The position numbers and the translations under genes were made by a program. A stretch of DNA of 23,916 nt from Limnohabitans sp. (GTDB lineage Bacteria; Pseudomonadota; Gammaproteobacteria; Burkholderiales; Burkholderiaceae_C), in the NCBI GenBank assembly GCA_021731425.1, contig JAKFXJ010000226.1:1-23916 (forward strand). Direction: 5' to 3'. The notes under the pieces were generated by a model. That model was not told the DNA's origin and made no database searches. It saw only the letters and a program-made list of their open reading frames with translations. Positions 7,146 through 23,916 of the stretch are shown here, in pieces. Position 1 is the first letter of the stretch, and every line of letters begins with the position of its first letter.

Positions 7146-8069
7146 TTACAAGCCCAACATCAACTCGATGTTTTGCACCGCCGCGCCGCTGGCACCCTTG
7201 CCCAGGTTGTCCAGACGGGCGATGACCACCGCGTGGCGTGCTTCTTCATTGGCAAAGACACGCAATTCCAGCTTGTTGGTGTCGTTCAGTGCTGTGGCGT
7301 TGAGTTTGGCATCAGCAGTGGCGCTCTCCACGCTGACCCAGCCTCCTGCGGCCTGGCTTGCCGCATAGTGCGCTGCCAATGCCGCATGCACATCCGCACC
7401 GGTGGGTTTGCCGGGCAAGGTGTCGAGATGCATGGGCAGTTGCACCAGCATGCCTTGGCGGAAATTGCCCACGGCGGGCACAAACAGGGGCCTGCAGGTC
7501 AAGCCGGTGTAGCGCATGATTTCGGGGATGTGTTTGTGCTTCAGGGTCAGGGCGTAAGCCTCGAACAGAGGGGCACGACCGGCTTCGTAGTCTTCGATCA
7601 TGGTCCGGCCACCGCCGGAATAACCGCTCACCGAGGGCAGGCAAACCGGAAAGTCGCGTGGCAACAGTCCGGCGTCGATCAAGGGGCGCAAGATGGCAAT
7701 CGCACCCGTCGCGTAGCAGCCAGGGTTGGCCACACGCTGGGCTTGGCGCACAGCGGCCAGCTGGTCGGCGGCCAGCTCGGGAAAACCAAACACCCAGTCC
7801 GGATGGCAGCGGTGCGCGGTCGACGCATCCACAATGCGCGGTTTGCGCCCACTCAGGCTGTCGATCATGGCCACCGACTCGATGGCAGCATCGTCGTGCA
7901 GGCACAACACCACCAAATCGGCCTCAGCCATCAACTCGCGTTTGGCTTCGGGGTCTTTGCGGCGGGCCGGGTCGATGCTGAGCACCTCGACTTGGGGCAT
8001 CCTTGCCAGGCGCTCGCGAATTTGCAAACCAGTGGTGCCGGCTTCGCCATCGATGAATATTTTGGCCAT
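7146..8069 (-). CDS. argC: N-acetyl-gamma-glutamyl-phosphate reductase, type 2
   Basis: ArgC, 307 residues, reduces N-acetylglutamyl-5-phosphate to the semialdehyde with NADPH, the third step of arginine synthesis. The N-terminal Rossmann motif is [18 protein letters not shown]. The active-site motif NPGCYATG places the catalytic cysteine at residue 118. [10 protein letters not shown] and the KHKHIPEI region contain the usual substrate contacts and the catalytic His. The length of about 310 and the lack of an ~30-residue insertion identify the shorter type 2 form rather than the ~340-residue type 1. The ATG at 8069 gives [11 protein letters not shown], the canonical start; only a weak ribosome binding site is visible. 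It stands alone on the minus strand, divergent from sucCD, with no other arg genes nearby. Confidence 0.96.
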
Positions 8070-8244: not shown

Positions 8245-9405
<1,161 letters not shown>

Positions 9406-14099: not shown

Positions 14100-14108
14100 C
14101 ACGCCTTA

Positions 14109-14199
14109 CCCAAGGAGCGTTGCAGCCCGCCGCCTATCAGGCGCAGCGGGTCAGGCTTGGGGCCGTTCAATGTCTGAATGATCTTGCACAACGACGCTC
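14109..14199 (+). promoter_or_regulatory. S-adenosylhomocysteine (SAH) riboswitch aptamer
   Basis: This leader matches the SAH riboswitch class known upstream of SAH-recycling genes in proteobacteria. P1 pairs CCCAAG (14109-14114) with CTTGGG (14156-14161). The conserved segment GGAGCGTTGCA follows P1. A second helix pairs CCCGC (14126-14130) with GCGGG (14146-14150) and is extended by CGCCT/AGGCG closing a three-base loop, with a CA bulge. The conserved TCAGGCTTGGG closes the core. The downstream strand CAACG-A-CGCTC (14189-14199) can pair with GAGCG (14115-14119) and TTG (14120-14122) to form the pseudoknot. The riboswitch senses SAH and in this class switches expression on, fitting control of methionine-cycle genes. 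Assignment is from motif recognition, not a covariance search. Confidence 0.85.
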
Positions 14200-14220
14200 A
14201 CCTGATACCCCAAGGTGAGC
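14196..14220 (+). promoter_or_regulatory. Shine-Dalgarno-sequestering hairpin, riboswitch expression platform
   Basis: GCTCACCT (14196-14203) pairs perfectly with AGGTGAGC (14213-14220). The right arm contains the AAGG(TGAG) ribosome binding site serving the GTG at 14223. The left arm shares GCTC (14196-14199) with the 3' strand of the riboswitch pseudoknot. Ligand-stabilised pseudoknot and SD-blocking hairpin are therefore mutually exclusive, predicting translation ON when SAH is bound. Confidence 0.7.
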
Positions 14221-14222
14221 CT

Positions 14223-16967
14223 GTGTCTGTTGTCGCGTCTTCCATCGTGTCTGTTCCCCCCATGAAGTTGTCCGGTCTGGAGCCTGTCTCCATCGGCACC
14301 GGGTCGCTGTTTGTCAACGTGGGTGAGCGCACCAATGTGACCGGCTCCAAGGCCTTTGCCCGCATGATCTTGAACGGCCAGTACGAAGAGGCTTTGGCTG
14401 TGGCGCGTCAGCAGGTCGAAAACGGCGCGCAGGTCATCGACGTGAACATGGACGAAGCCATGCTCGACAGCCAGGCGGCCATGGTGCGGTTTTTGAATTT
14501 GATGGCCGGTGAGCCCGACATCGCCCGCGTGCCGGTGATGGTGGATTCGAGCAAATGGACGGTGATCGAAGCCGGTCTGCGCTGCATTCAGGGCAAGGGC
14601 ATCGTCAACTCGATCAGCATGAAAGAGGGCCTGGATGAGTTCAAGCGCCAAGCCAAGCTGGTCAAGCGCTACGGCGCGGCTGCGGTGGTGATGGCGTTTG
14701 ACGAAAAAGGCCAGGCCGACACCTACGAGCGCAAGATCGAGATTTGTGAACGCGCCTACCGCGTGCTGGTGGACGAGGTGGACTTCCCACCCGAAGACAT
14801 CATTTTTGACCCGAACATTTTTGCCATCGCCACCGGCATCGAAGAGCACAACAACTATGCGGTGGACTTCATCGAAGCCACGCGCTGGATCAAGCAGAAT
14901 CTGCCGGGTGCCAAGGTGTCGGGTGGCGTGTCCAACGTGTCCTTCAGCTTCCGGGGTAACGACCCGGTGCGCGAGGCCATCCACACCGTGTTCCTGTACC
15001 ACGCGATCCAAGCGGGCATGGACATGGGCATCGTCAACGCGGGCATGGTCGGTGTGTACGACGACCTGGAGCCCACGCTGCGCGAACGGGTGGAAGACGT
15101 GGTGCTGAACCGTCGCACTGACGCGGGTGAGCGTTTGGTCGAAGTGGCCGACAGCGCCAAAGGCGCTGCCAAAGACGAGACCACCAAACTGGCTTGGCGT
15201 GGCACGCCCGATGCGCCTGTGCGTGTGGCGCAGCGCTTGAGTCATTCGCTGGTGCACGGCATCACCGACTTCATCAGCGACGACACCGAAGAGGCCTACC
15301 AAGAGATTCTGGCCAAAGGCGGACGCCCGCTGCATGTGATCGAAGGCCCGCTGATGGACGGCATGAACGTGGTCGGCGACCTGTTTGGCCAGGGCAAGAT
15401 GTTCTTGCCGCAAGTGGTCAAGAGCGCCCGCGTGATGAAGCAGGCCGTGGCGCATTTGCTGCCCTACATCGAAGCCGAAAAGCTGGCGCAAGAAGCGGCG
15501 GGCGAAGACGTGAAAGCCAAAGGCAAGATCGTGATCGCCACCGTCAAGGGCGACGTGCACGACATCGGCAAAAACATCGTCACCGTGGTCTTGCAGTGCA
15601 ACAACTTTGAAGTGGTCAACATGGGCGTGATGGTGCCTTGCCACGAAATTTTGGCCAAAGCCAAAGAAGAAAACGCCGACATCATCGGCCTGTCGGGCCT
15701 GATCACGCCCAGCCTCGAAGAGATGCAGTACGTGGCGGCCGAGATGGAAAAAGACCCGTACTTCCGCGACCGCCAAATGCCGCTGCTGATTGGCGGCGCC
15801 ACCTGCAGCCGTGTGCACACCGCCGTGAAGATCGCACCCAACTACAGTGGCCCCGTGGTCTATGTGCCCGACGCTTCGCGCAGCGTGGGCGTGGCGCAGG
15901 GTTTGTTGTCTGAGCAGGCGGCCAAGTTCATCGCCGACTTGAACACCGACTACGACAAGGTGCGCGAGCAGCACGCCAACAAAAAACAAACCCCCATGTG
16001 GACGCTGGCGCAGGCCCGCGCCAACAAGACGCCGATCGATTGGTCCAAGGGCGTGCCCGCCGCGCCCAAGTTCATTGGCCGCCGCGTGTTCAAGAACTAC
16101 GACCTGGCCGAAATTGCGCAATACATCGACTGGGGCCCCTTCTTCCAGACTTGGGACTTGGCCGGGCCATTCCCTGCCATCCTCGACGACGAAGTGGTCG
16201 GTGAACAGGCGCGAAAGGTCTATGCAGACGGCCAAGCCATGCTGCAAAAAATCATCGATGGACGCTGGGTCACGGCCAACGCGGTGTTGGGCCTGTACCC
16301 TGCCAACAGCGTGAATGATGACGACATCGCGCTCTACACCGACGTATCACGCCAGCAAGTCGCCATGACTTGGCGCGGCATGCGTCAGCAGACCGAAAAG
16401 CACATGATCGATGGCGTCATGCGCCCCAGCCGTTGCCTGGCCGACTTCGTCGCGCCCACAGGCCAAGACCATGTGGGCCTGTTCGCCGTGACCGCAGGCA
16501 TCGGTGCCGACAAACGCGCCGCCGCCTTTGAAGCCGCACACGACGACTACAGCGCCATCATGCTCAAGTCCCTGGCCGACCGCTTGGCCGAAGCATTGGC
16601 CGAGTGCCTGCACAAAAAAGTGCGCACCGACCTGTGGGGCTATGCCGCGGGCGAGGCGCTGAGCAACGAAGAACTCATTGCAGAAAAATACCAGGGCATC
16701 CGCCCCGCACCCGGCTATCCGGCTTGCCCCGACCACAGCGCCAAACAAGCCATGTTCGACTTGCTGCAATGCCAAGACATTGGCATGGGCCTGACCGAAA
16801 GCCTGGCCATGACGCCTGCGGCCAGCGTGAGCGGTTTCTACATCGCGCACCCAGAGGCGCAGTACTTCAACGTGGGCAAGGTGGGTGATGACCAAGTGCA
16901 GGACTTGGCGCAACGCAGTGGCGTGCAAGTCAAAGATCTGCAGCGTCTGCTGGCCCCTAACCTGTAA
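14223..16967 (+). CDS. metH: methionine synthase, B12-dependent, lacking the homocysteine-binding domain
   Basis: Cobalamin-dependent methionine synthase, 914 residues, containing only the last three of the four MetH modules. They are the methyltetrahydrofolate (pterin-binding) domain from about residue 15 ([30 protein letters not shown]), the B12-binding module (cap helices, then [11 protein letters not shown] with the cobalt-ligand His near residue 447), and the reactivation domain ([13 protein letters not shown] near residue 827, which binds AdoMet). E. coli MetH has ~1227 residues; the missing ~330 are the zinc-dependent homocysteine domain, often a separate gene in Burkholderiales. The GTG at 14223 has AAGG seven bases upstream. 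ATG 14262 is an alternative without a ribosome binding site. The longer ATG reading at 14178 would lie inside the riboswitch. Expression is probably raised by SAH. Confidence 0.93.
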
Positions 16968-20915: not shown

Positions 20916-21589
20916 ACGCGGGACTTCAGATCGACATCGAACGCTTGGGCACGGTGGCGCAGACCTTGATGCAAGACCTGCACCTGAACGTGCCCGCAGG
21001 CGAGATCCTCACGCTCATGGGGCCGAGTGGCTGCGGCAAAAGCTCGGTGCTGGCCGCCACGGCGGGCACGCTGGCCAGCGTCTCCGAAGGTTTGCAGCCT
21101 TTGCAGTTTGACGGCCGCGTGCAGCTGAACGGCCGTGACCTCACCACCTTGCCCACGCACCTGCGCGGTGTCGGCTTGGTGTTTCAGGATGCTTTGCTGT
21201 TTGCGCACATGACGGTCGCCGAAAACCTGCTGTTTGCCGTTTCCCGCACCTTGCCGCTTGCGCAGCGCCAGGTGCGTGTACAGCAAGCGCTGCAAGAAGC
21301 CGAGCTGAGCGGCATGGGCGAGCGTGATCCTTCTACCTTGTCGGGCGGGCAACGCGCCCGCGTAGCGCTCATGCGGGCGCTGCTGGCCGAGCCGCAAGCG
21401 CTGCTGCTGGATGAGCCGTTTTCCAAACTCGACGCCGCCTTGCGCGCCCAGCTGCGCCCGTGGGTGTTTGCGCATGTGCGCGAGCGGCGCATCCCGGTGG
21501 TGCTGGTCACACACGACGAACAAGACGTGGCAGACCCACAGCGCGTGGTGCACTTGCACGTCGCCGAAGAAAGCCCAACGCATGTTTGA
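20912..21589 (+). CDS. ynjD: YnjD-like ABC transporter ATP-binding protein
   Basis: The ATPase subunit, 225 residues. All nucleotide-binding motifs are present: Walker A GPSGCGKSS (residues 37-45), Q-loop Gln92 in VFQDALLF, signature LSGGQRAR (143-150), Walker B LLLDEPF (164-170), D-loop SKLDAAL and switch His201 in VTHDEQD. Its ATG overlaps the ynjC stop as ATGA, indicating translational coupling. The short length without a C-terminal regulatory domain fits the YnjD group. Together with the fused permease (probably one YnjC plus a YnjD dimer) and YnjB it forms a complete importer. Confidence 0.95.
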   Translation: MNAGLQIDIERLGTVAQTLMQDLHLNVPAGEILTLMGPSGCGKSSVLAATAGTLASVSEGLQPLQFDGRVQLNGRDLTTLPTHLRGVGLVFQDALLFAHMTVAENLLFAVSRTLPLAQRQVRVQQALQEAELSGMGERDPSTLSGGQRARVALMRALLAEPQALLLDEPFSKLDAALRAQLRPWVFAHVRERRIPVVLVTHDEQDVADPQRVVHLHVAEESPTHV

Positions 21590-22187
21590 CCGCCACGCCC
21601 AAACCCTCTTGCGCCCCGCGCTCAACGCCGCCGCACGCGGCTTGGTGCGCGTTGGCATCAGCGCCGACGCGTTGACCTGGCTGGGCTTTGCCATCGGCAT
21701 GGCCGCCGCCGTGGCCATTGCACTGCAAGCGTGGTGGTGGGGCTTGGCGCTGCTGCTGGCCTCGCGCTTGCTCGACGGCCTGGACGGCAGCGTGGCCCGC
21801 CTGACCCAGCCCACCGACGCGGGCGGGTTCCTGGACATCGCACTCGACTTCGTGTTTTACGCCGCCATCCCCCTGGCCTTTGCGGTGGCCAACCCCAGCG
21901 CCAATGCCCTACCCGCCGCAGCCCTGCTGGCCAGCTTCATCGGCACCGGCAGCAGCTTTTTGGCGTTTGCCGCATTGGCCGAAAAACGCGGCCTGACCGA
22001 CACCGCCTTGCCGGGAAAAAGCTTTTACTTCTTAGGCGGCCTGACCGAGGCCACCGAGACCATAACCGTCTTCGCAGCGATGTGCATCTGGCCTGAACAC
22101 TTTGCGGTGTTGGCTTATGGGTTTGCGGGGTTGTGTGTGGTGACGACGGGGATGCGGGTTGGTTGGGGGTATTTCAGGTTGGGATAA
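21582..22187 (+). CDS. ynjF: CDP-alcohol phosphatidyltransferase family protein (YnjF-like)
   Basis: An integral membrane enzyme of 201 residues. The CDP-alcohol phosphotransferase signature appears as LLDGLDGSVARLTQPTDAGGF followed by LDIALDF (split: DGLDGSVAR, DAGGFLDIALDF), with the four metal-binding Asp residues and slightly shortened spacing after the AR. About five to six hydrophobic helices follow. The family moves a phosphoalcohol from a CDP-linked donor to an acceptor alcohol, usually in phospholipid synthesis; YnjF's own substrate is unknown. The ATG at 21582 overlaps the end of ynjD by 8 bases. The same gene order occurs near E. coli ynjBCD, though with ynjE in between, suggesting a shared pathway. 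No terminator is visible after the stop. Confidence 0.92.
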   Translation: MFDRHAQTLLRPALNAAARGLVRVGISADALTWLGFAIGMAAAVAIALQAWWWGLALLLASRLLDGLDGSVARLTQPTDAGGFLDIALDFVFYAAIPLAFAVANPSANALPAAALLASFIGTGSSFLAFAALAEKRGLTDTALPGKSFYFLGGLTEATETITVFAAMCIWPEHFAVLAYGFAGLCVVTTGMRVGWGYFRLG

Positions 22188-22203
22188 TGTTGACCGAGGG
22201 GCT

Positions 22204-22701
22204 TCACTGCAGTGGCTTCGCCATCACTATGCTTTGATAGACCTTGCCCGGCCATTGCACGGAGCCGACATGTTTGTATCCAAGGCGGGTGTAAAGATCG
22301 ACGAGATGCACGGCTGGTTTTGCAGTGTCTAGGGCAAGTTCACGATACCCCTGTTTTATGGCCCAAGCCTCGCACCTTTGGATCAGGGTTCTGCCAATAC
22401 CCTGGCCCTGCATACTTGGTTCTACGGCGAACTGCCGAAGTGAGGAAACGTCAGGTCTTCGAAAATGGATGCACTCGCAATCGTCTTCTGGCGGTTTTGC
22501 CAGGACCGTTCCTACCAGACCCCCATCCCAATACGCGAGCAGGCAGTGGCCGCCCGAAATGCGCGCGCGGGTTGTGTCGATTGACTGATTGACTGCTGTG
22601 TAGTTCAAACCCATCGCCCCGAGTCGCGCATAGCCCCGGTGCAGCAGGTCTGTAAGCGCGCTGAGCGAGTCGTGGTCTTGAATATGGCGGATTAGAAGCA
22701 T
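22204..22701 (-). CDS. GNAT family N-acetyltransferase
   Basis: A cytoplasmic protein of 165 residues with the GCN5-related acetyltransferase fold. The acetyl-CoA pyrophosphate-binding motif A is QGQGIGRTL (residues 98-106, Q/R-x-x-G-x-G/A type), preceded by the strand LRQFAVEP; motif B follows in LALDTAKPAVHLVDLYTRLGYKHVG. Substrate unknown: members acetylate amino groups of antibiotics, amino acids, proteins or small toxins. The ATG at 22701 follows an A-run and no Shine-Dalgarno is visible. Its stop is only 16 bases from the convergent ynjF stop. Base composition is less GC-rich than the ynj operon, and small GNAT genes are typical integron cassette cargo, consistent with the attC-like structure at its 5' side. 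Confidence 0.9.
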   Translation of the reverse strand: MLLIRHIQDHDSLSALTDLLHRGYARLGAMGLNYTAVNQSIDTTRARISGGHCLLAYWDGGLVGTVLAKPPEDDCECIHFRRPDVSSLRQFAVEPSMQGQGIGRTLIQRCEAWAIKQGYRELALDTAKPAVHLVDLYTRLGYKHVGSVQWPGKVYQSIVMAKPLQ

Positions 22702-22715
22702 TTTTTAACTGTGAA

Positions 22716-22846
22716 GCTTACGTTCGAGCTGAGGTGACCTGCAAGGCAGGACGCCCTTTGCTGTCAGCGGCCAATGAGCTTGCGACCCCGCTGCCGTCCA
22801 AGGGTGGCCTGCCTCGCGGGGTCACCTCTAGAGCGAGGGGTTGGGC
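22716..22846 (-). repeat. attC-like imperfect palindrome (possible integron recombination site)
   Basis: A long imperfect hairpin of nested arms: GAGGTGACC (22731-22739) with GGTCACCTC (22820-22828); AGGCAGG (22744-22750) with CCTGCCT (22808-22814); CCCTT (22754-22758) with AAGGG (22800-22804); CAGCGG (22765-22770) with CCGCTG (22788-22793), enclosing a 17-base loop. Read on the minus strand it begins one base after the upstream gene's TGA with GCCCAAC, an exact match to the attC inverse core RYYYAAC. It ends with CGTAAGC, which resembles the core GTTRRRY with one T missing. The total of about 131 bases lies in the attC size range. The degenerate core and absence of an integrase keep this tentative. 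Confidence 0.5.
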
Positions 22847-22847
22847 C

Positions 22848-23726
22848 TCATGCAGGCGACTGGCGGAAGAGGGCAAGCAGCTTCTCTCGGAGCGGGGGGT
22901 CACAGAAGTCCTCCATGTCCAGCATGTGAACGAGCGCATCGACTTGCTCATCACTCCGGTGGTCGTAGATGAGGAGACGCTCGACCTGGTGTTGGGGCAG
23001 ATACTGGCGCAGATACTGGAAGGGATTGGCCGTCTTCGGGACGTGAGACAGCACGAGGTTCCAGTTGTACTTTTTCAGAAGGCCTTCGTAGATGCGCTTG
23101 TAGTCGAGGTACGGTCGCAGAACAGCGTGGAACTGATCAAGTACCGAGCCGTGGTGCCACGCGTAGAAGCTCTGTACATGTTTGCGATAGGTGGAGAACA
23201 CATCGTACACATCGACTGTGTCAGAGGCGCGGGCGATGAAGTCCTTAGCTGACGCGGTCCACCCATCCCACATCAGTAGTTCAGCCTTTGAAACGCGGAA
23301 GCGCGTCTCCCGCGAGTGAACCTTTAAGTCGTGCTCAATGACCCAGTTGGTCTGAGCAATGCGCCAGTGGACGTTGTAATTGCGTAGGGATTTGAGGAAG
23401 TCATGTAGCCCCGGGGTCGAGAAGTCGGCCTTCAAGCGTTCGTCGTATCCCGATACAGGCGTCGCCCTCTGAAAGTGGCGCGCGTGATCAACAAGGGCCA
23501 TGAGCGCGGAGGTGCAGTTGAACACCTTCCTCTTGACGGCTCGAGTATGTGTCTCGGCTTCGCTGCCGTGTGCCTCGTGCCAGAACGTTGGGTTCTTGCT
23601 TCTCTCGCCAAAGAGCGAGATCTCGTCAAGAAGCTCGGTGGTGCTCGCCTGAAAGATCCACACGCTGTCGTCGAGATCCTGAAGCGCACGCCAAAGCTTG
23701 CCACCGGGTGTTTCGGCAATGGACAA
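22848..23726 (-). CDS. hypothetical protein with HEPN-like R-N-x3-H motif
   Basis: An unrecognised protein of 292 residues, predicted soluble and mostly helical; no signal peptide or membrane segment. It contains SLRNYNVHWRI with Arg115-Asn116 and His120, fitting the R-x4-H motif (polar residue after Arg) that marks HEPN ribonuclease domains of toxins and abortive-infection proteins; a helical segment with ALMALVDHARH precedes it. Other notable segments are WIFQASTTELLDEI, KAELLMWDGW and YLPQHQVERLLIYDHR. The TTG at 23726 is the assumed start: there is no ATG upstream, no ribosome binding site, and the frame stays open 30-odd codons further to a stop at 23820-23822, beside the IS fragment. 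The 5' end may therefore be truncated. An attC-like site directly follows the stop. Confidence 0.65.
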   Translation of the reverse strand: MSIAETPGGKLWRALQDLDDSVWIFQASTTELLDEISLFGERSKNPTFWHEAHGSEAETHTRAVKRKVFNCTSALMALVDHARHFQRATPVSGYDERLKADFSTPGLHDFLKSLRNYNVHWRIAQTNWVIEHDLKVHSRETRFRVSKAELLMWDGWTASAKDFIARASDTVDVYDVFSTYRKHVQSFYAWHHGSVLDQFHAVLRPYLDYKRIYEGLLKKYNWNLVLSHVPKTANPFQYLRQYLPQHQVERLLIYDHRSDEQVDALVHMLDMEDFCDPPLREKLLALFRQSPA

Positions 23727-23831
23727 CCGAACGTCTGAGTGACTCTTGAACAGAGCGGCCTCTAGCTGTGCGCGTGTCCAGGGCTGTGGAAGTGAACCTG
23801 CCCCTGTTTGACGTACCGCTTAGCCACTTCA

Positions 23832-23916
23832 TTATGCGGCCTTCAATTGCTGTGCCGCGTCCCAGCGTTTTTCAAACTGCATCGGACTGACGTAGCCCAA
23901 CGTGGAGTGCAACCGC
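23832..23916 (-). CDS. IS3-family transposase, C-terminal fragment (runs off window)
   Basis: The last 27 codons of a transposase OrfB: RLHSTLGYVSP, then MQFEKRWDAAQQLKAA and TAA at 23834-23832. The R-x-HS-x-LGY-x-SP-x-x-FE pattern is the conserved C-terminal end of the DDE integrase domain of IS3-family elements. The gene enters from beyond base 23916. Being only the 3' end, it does not reveal the subgroup or whether the element is intact. Confidence 0.85.
   Translation of the reverse strand, partial: RLHSTLGYVSPMQFEKRWDAAQQLKAA
23832..23916 (-). mobile_element. end of an IS3-family insertion sequence (minimum extent)
   Basis: The transposase end marks an IS3-family element extending past the right edge. 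Its inner terminus should lie a few tens of bases left of 23832. I could not fix the terminal inverted repeat without the other end; the stretch TGAACCTGCCCCTG at 23793-23806 is a candidate. It abuts the 5' region of the hypothetical gene at 22848-23726. Confidence 0.6.

Follow-up and report, generated by a model that had tools for sequence, protein, structure and literature searches.

Clusters of attC sites that lack an integron integrase (CALINs) have been proposed to be degraded integrons, and IntegronFinder 2 reports them by default from two attC sites upward (PMC9024848). In Xanthomonas, integrons at the ilvD locus lose intI progressively, and CALINs occur at conserved loci (PMC12444791). 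Cassettes are also reported to integrate at attG sites (Loot 2024, as cited in PMC11023631 and PMC12444791).

We analysed a contig from a Limnohabitans MAG (82% complete, 405 contigs, 2.8 Mb). The window, by which we mean the whole stretch of DNA analysed, is this one contig at its full length of 23,916 nucleotides, so that it ends at position 23916. It resembles a CALIN in that cassette genes and an attC site lie in one orientation with no integrase near them, but it shows one complete attC site, compared to the IntegronFinder 2 default of two. The likeness to the ilvD integrons of Xanthomonas is that arrays stand beside a fixed chromosomal neighbour across the genus while the integrase is decaying or gone; in Limnohabitans, however, the neighbour is ynjF, and 31 of 90 genomes retain at least one attI-like element, frequently two or more. 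Integration at attG sites would likewise leave a cassette without a nearby integrase, whereas the arrays of the window's relatives are bounded by attI-like elements. A large chromosomal integron of the same family (L101-L103, G352:C1:3099800-3147000) is similar in its long attC (∼126 nt) and in a GNAT cassette that is 61% identical, but it has an IntI over the cut-off and 63 attC sites by strict scan in the 47 kb read. A complete integron consists of intI, attI and an array; neither an intI nor an attI-like element was found in the MAG of the window.

Elsewhere in the window, Rfam at gathering scores found only a SAH riboswitch (14106-14206, 48.8 bits, above its gathering score), which precedes a large ORF (14178-16967) that looks, by eye, like a methionine synthase.

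An attC site with a worn right core

The outer boxes of attC sites follow the consensus RYYYAAC and GTTRRRY. On the minus strand the window reads, in this order, a TGA stop codon (22850-22848), one G, GCCCAAC (22846-22840), a set of arms, CGTAAGC (22722-22716), 14 bases and an ATG at 22701. The initial annotation had placed GCCCAAC directly after the TGA; the box is indeed exact, matching RYYYAAC, while the adjacency has to be corrected by the intervening G. The nested complementary arms that it described were found as a perfect outer arm of 9 bp and an inner arm of 33 nt with 76% complementarity. The near-core CGTAAGC followed after 14 bases by the start codon of the GNAT gene agrees in its coordinates, and the caveat that this core is one T short also stands (CGTAAGC versus GTTAAGC, that is, GTTRRRY minus one T). 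Besides the base missing from the right core, the alignment to the covariance model R1 (see below) reveals a two-base insertion in the left arm as a second mark of wear. Among the sites seen, the same-genus attC of G109 ends in AGCTCGAACGTTAGGC, the equivalent in the window being AGCTCGAACGTAAGC. An attC-like right end at L069, with the core CGTAAAG and likewise one T short, was seen by eye ahead of a GNAT homologue. The coordinates of all parts are collected in Table 1.

Table 1. Features of the window from ynjF to the contig end
Feature	Position	Strand	Basis
ynjF-like CDP-alcohol phosphatidyltransferase gene, the array's resident neighbour	21585..22187	+	Pfam PF01066, 35.8 bits; present in 38/90 genomes of the genus
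Stop-to-stop gap between GNAT gene and ynjF, 16 bases, with CCCTCGGTCAA resembling an attC left arm	22188..22203	-	profile rank 31 of about 47,800 15-mers
GNAT acetyltransferase gene, second cassette, own attC missing	22204..22701	-	Pfam Acetyltransf_1, 64.4 bits; G352 homologue is a complete cassette
attC recombination site, worn	22716..22846	-	131 nt; R2 35.7 bits, R1 33.0 bits, fold z -3.04
Right core CGTAAGC, one T short of CGTTAAGC	22716..22722	-	sequence and alignments
Right arm GGTCACCTC	22731..22739	-	perfect pairing with 22820-22828
Left arm GAGGTGACC	22820..22828	-	perfect pairing with 22731-22739
Left outer box GCCCAAC, fits RYYYAAC	22840..22846	-	sequence and R1 alignment
Hypothetical cassette gene, 5' end missing	22848..23792	-	frame stays open, aligned with P0121, as far as codon 8 of relatives; tool-listed ORF 22848-23726
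End of IS3-family element (transposase C-terminus RLHSTLGYVSPMQFEKRWDAAQQLKAA), continuing past the contig end	23793..23916	-	plasmid matches annotated as IS3 family; translation

Folded as single-stranded DNA, the cassette strand of the site reached -33.9 kcal/mol (z -3.04), a value equalled by 0 of 200 shuffles, and it contained the inner arms and the imperfect hairpin expected of an attC site; the opposite strand gave a z of -2.56, with 3 of 200 shuffles equal. We built two covariance models, neither of which had the window site in its training set. R1 was derived from 20 long attC sites (18 from G352 and 2 from G109), and R2 from 24 diverse attC sites of other genomes with the outer and inner boxes entered as structure. 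In the R2 alignment 91.9% of cells pair (78.3% in shuffles) and there are 48 two-sided changes (15.1 in shuffles), whereas the six pairs that carry a two-sided change do not outnumber those in the shuffles (6.2). The initial annotation had suggested a search with an attC model as a check, and both self-built models match the site: R1 with 33.0 bits (E 9e-5 in the MAG) and R2 with 35.7 bits (E 5.6e-6), the latter being the sole match at E ≤ 10 across the 2.8 Mb of the MAG in a search that scored 150 of 2076 first-look candidates. A profile of the two boxes without structure gave the window 41.1 bits, versus at most 17.9 bits when the window was dinucleotide-shuffled 20 times. The right box that this profile prefers ends at 22715, one base beyond the core in the initial annotation, and the right box alone, placed ungapped at that core, scores -16.3. 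The simple pattern RYYYAAC-N{80,110}-GTTRRRY was useless alone, with 35 forward matches and 90 matches of the reversed control in the same genome.

Could the hairpin be a terminator or some other palindrome that mimics an attC site by chance? A long palindrome on another contig of the MAG (C167), which has no attC boxes, also obtained 31.3 bits with R1, so that R1 alone is not specific. R2, however, in which the outer boxes are modelled, matches the window and not this palindrome, both genes beside the site have cassette relatives, and relatives carry attC sites at the same place; a chance palindrome is thus already contradicted by the R2 results and by the attC sites at the ynjF loci of relatives, and we regard it as extremely improbable. 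The C167 palindrome itself (L155, G000:C167, 278-398) is long and near-perfect and adjoins a gene that we take to be boxA-like; with no attC boxes and no R2 match it was rejected as an attC site. The initial annotation had also raised a dispersed non-integron repeat, which is ruled out, as the attC DNA is single-copy in the MAG (the next-best match spans 22 bases, E 0.4). We conclude that the stretch at 22716-22846 on the minus strand is a genuine but worn attC site.

The genes on either side of the site

The hypothetical gene is a single gene with its TGA one base before the attC site and its 5' side replaced by the end of an IS3-family element, which takes the place of all sequence before about codon 7/8. 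The protein had no match in Pfam, NCBIfam, PADLOC or PDB sequences that would indicate a function. It has 107 homologues at E ≤ 0.001, and a genome scan led to 12 loci. In Rhodocyclus tenuis (L051) the homologue is flanked by attC sites on both sides, at 7812-7907 and, past its stop codon, at 8875-8940 (R2), and its ATG lies three bases past the core GTTGGGC that ends the upstream attC. In Fluviicoccus (L053) an attC site of 25.7 bits follows the stop codon of the homologue, and beyond it lie two more matches, one good and the other weak. In a member of the Gallionellaceae (L050) GTTGGGC again stands three bases ahead of the ATG; the closest R2 match ends ∼90 bases upstream, and past the stop codon there is none. 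The training set of R2 included 7753-7818 of L050 and 6990-7088 of L051, and none of the other matches named at these loci. The remaining loci with relatives of the hypothetical gene (L052 and L054-L061) had no R2 match at E ≤ 5; the family therefore also occurs outside recognisable integrons.

A metagenomic protein that is 99% identical to the hypothetical protein (P0121) has 14 extra residues, MYQPGFAVYITLGH, before MTRYLDT. Without the start residue, this N-terminus matches the translated attI of G047 (L235) at 12 of 13 positions and many other translated attI sequences at 9-11 of 13; across the 78,704 residues of the fetched proteins, a single window reached 9. The simplest reading of these translations is that in the metagenomic copy the hypothetical gene would be the first cassette at an attI.

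The GNAT gene gave only matches below the cut-off in NCBIfam, and we therefore claim no specific substrate for its product. Homologues at E ≤ 1e-20 were present in 11 of 399 genomes of the order, its own included. In two of the 11 places read, G352 (61% identical) and G075 (37%), the homologue lies between two attC sites; in G352, which belongs to the same family, it forms a complete cassette within an array of more than 40 kb, at a distance of 41 kb from IntI. Four GNAT loci, L116, L117, L119 and L120 (G287, G091, G308 and G343), were rejected: the strict scan gave no convincing attC site there and R2 none at E ≤ 5; L120 had one weak R1 match (E 0.48). With full-cassette relatives of both genes and with the model matches, the proposal of the initial annotation, an attC-like site between a GNAT gene and an unknown gene as a possible remnant of an integron cassette, is supported.

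A cassette gene is followed by its own attC, and none follows the GNAT gene: as the initial annotation had cautioned, there is no second complete attC past it, the full model scoring 1.4 bits in the 16 bases before the stop codon of ynjF. The CCCTCGGTCAA in this gap, to which the flank of the relative L129 is similar, is possibly a remnant of the attC of the GNAT cassette or else native ynjF flank. The initial annotation had asked whether the junction of the GNAT gene with ynjF is conserved in relatives; it is not shared in the genus, where no other GNAT homologue scores above 27.4 bits and the sequences downstream of ynjF differ.

A GNAT gene with no attC of its own in the window would also suit a different history, in which the hypothetical cassette alone was inserted at a non-integron secondary site, of the GNT or attG type, upstream of a resident GNAT gene. 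The core, which departs from GTTRRRY exactly after the G, would then be half cassette and half target (G/TAAGC), and integration at attG sites has been reported (Loot 2024, as cited in the texts named above). A deletion of one base, however, accounts for the core equally well, the homologues of the GNAT gene in G352 and G075 are cassettes while the gene is otherwise absent from the genus above 27.4 bits, and arrays with attI-like elements recur at this place (see below). We consider such an insertion quite improbable.

Arrays and attI-like elements downstream of ynjF

The gene ynjF was found at E ≤ 1e-30 in 38 of 90 genomes of the genus, that of the window included. We examined the sequence downstream of it in 36 relatives, in pieces of 123 to 19981 bases; the 37th, G053, matched only partially and was not included. 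At E ≤ 0.5, R2 gave 23 matches in 12 of 37 sources, namely 11 of the 36 relatives and the window, with up to five matches at any other ynjF locus; at E ≤ 1e-3 there were 17 matches, in nine of the 36 relatives and the window. All 23 matches have the same orientation relative to ynjF as the site in the window. The other 25 of the 36 relatives had no attC match there, some of their pieces being short. In a scan of all 90 genomes with R2 at E ≤ 1e-3, for which stricter filters were set and 45 candidates per genome were scored, we found 64 places in 28 genomes, of which 13, in nine genomes, lay within 5 kb downstream of ynjF. The 3' end of ynjF is a recurrent array locus in Limnohabitans, though 51 of the 64 attC places lie elsewhere. 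Neither of the two window proteins matched any of 65 Limnohabitans loci (L160-L224) at E ≤ 1e-3. When 15 array interiors were compared, three pairs shared more than 800 bp and the rest little.

Two or three ynjF-like copies lie close together in G054:C5 and G109:C3, and G109 has a partial attI-like match just upstream of one of them. At the ynjF locus of G105 (L194, 1887-3482), what appears by eye to be a type I restriction-modification fragment and a DNA methyltransferase lie past the attI-like element.

Cassette insertion at attI falls between the G and the TT. At the far side of the arrays lies a conserved element that matches the stretch between the array and intI in two intI-bearing genomes. 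In the attI and leader part, five elements from ynjF loci match G122 at 102-107 of 141-144 positions, and G109 matches it at 131 of 145, compared to 45 of 143 for an off-target row (L193, alignment A4). Its conservation is high up to ACG|TT and gives way to variation from there on, as expected of an attI crossover point. Downstream of ynjF it was present in 14 of the 36 relatives (15 rows, one of them without the attI part). A relic of the 5' end of intI within the elements at ynjF is not claimed, with 16-24 of 35-44 positions matching and 15 of 44 in the off-target row L193.

At E ≤ 1e-60 IntI was found in 148 of 399 genomes of the order; in Limnohabitans, two of 90 genomes have an IntI over the family cut-off, and no intact copy over that cut-off is present among the 90. 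Both copies appear broken, one being spread over frames and the other lacking its middle. Among 46 loci searched, IntI fragments adjoin attI in three more genomes, clearly in G021 (64.0 bits) and weakly in G042 (18.2 bits) and G037 (15.4 bits). No IntI match at E ≤ 1e-3 lies in the window or in the regions downstream of ynjF, and none over the family cut-off was found in the MAG, which is 82% complete, in agreement with the remark in the initial annotation that no integrase was in view. Several genomes hold more than one attI-like copy (five matches in G025, four in G053 and three in G043).

These copies bear on whether the arrays at ynjF might be alive, their attI being retained since an integrase elsewhere in the cell, or one borne on a plasmid, would act in trans. 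In G109 an intI-linked array lies ∼540 kb from an array at ynjF that has attI and attC without intI; the array interiors vary between species while the ends are conserved; and several of the 31 genomes with attI-like elements have two or more. On the other hand, the genomes with an IntI over the cut-off are just the two with copies that look broken, the attC core in the window is defective, and the interiors could predate the loss of intI in their divergence. On balance we find action in trans unlikely. The broader proposal that goes with it is equally tentative: Limnohabitans would carry a family of attI-attC platforms that lack an integrase, of which one is fixed at the 3' end of ynjF, with cassettes still exchanged in trans and with platform and recombinase uncoupled across the genus.

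A probable decayed chromosomal integron

Integron integrases recombine the folded single-stranded bottom strands of attC sites. The window very probably holds the end, on the ynjF side, of a chromosomal integron that has decayed, with two cassettes in the same orientation between an attI-like platform, off the contig, and ynjF. The hypothetical and GNAT cassettes would have been captured by an integron integrase through recombination of such folded sites, and the later decay of the integrase gene in the lineage would have left an array without an integrase. A base would then have been lost from the right core of the surviving attC and the attC of the GNAT cassette would have gone, and in this strain an IS3-family element interrupted the first cassette gene near codon 7/8. 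The order is likely to be attI, IS3, hypothetical cassette, attC, GNAT cassette and ynjF, with the IS3 element inside the first cassette; we infer how these events followed one another, that recombination activity was lost, and that an attI lies beyond the IS in this strain. Because there is no integrase, the core is defective and the second attC is missing, both cassettes are now probably fixed. Against a decayed integron, the sole complete attC at the locus is defective, the majority of relatives have no attC match downstream of ynjF, and the MAG, at its 82% completeness, yielded neither an attI element nor an IntI. The score that R1 gives to the C167 palindrome and the occurrence of the hypothetical gene's family outside cassettes also weigh against it.

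The titles and abstract openings of the literature searched, a scope outside which most subscription papers lie, hold no description of an array locus at ynjF, and its use as a recurrent array site may thus be unreported. A worn attC site recognised from raw sequence has been confirmed. A decayed integron array is a known kind of locus; what is new here is the 3' end of ynjF as a recurrent array locus in the genus. In this freshwater genus the attI-like platforms seem to outlive their integrase. If the arrays still turn over, they would provide a natural setting in which to test cassette exchange in trans; if not, they would be one more case, as in Xanthomonas, of ancestral integrons decaying in place.
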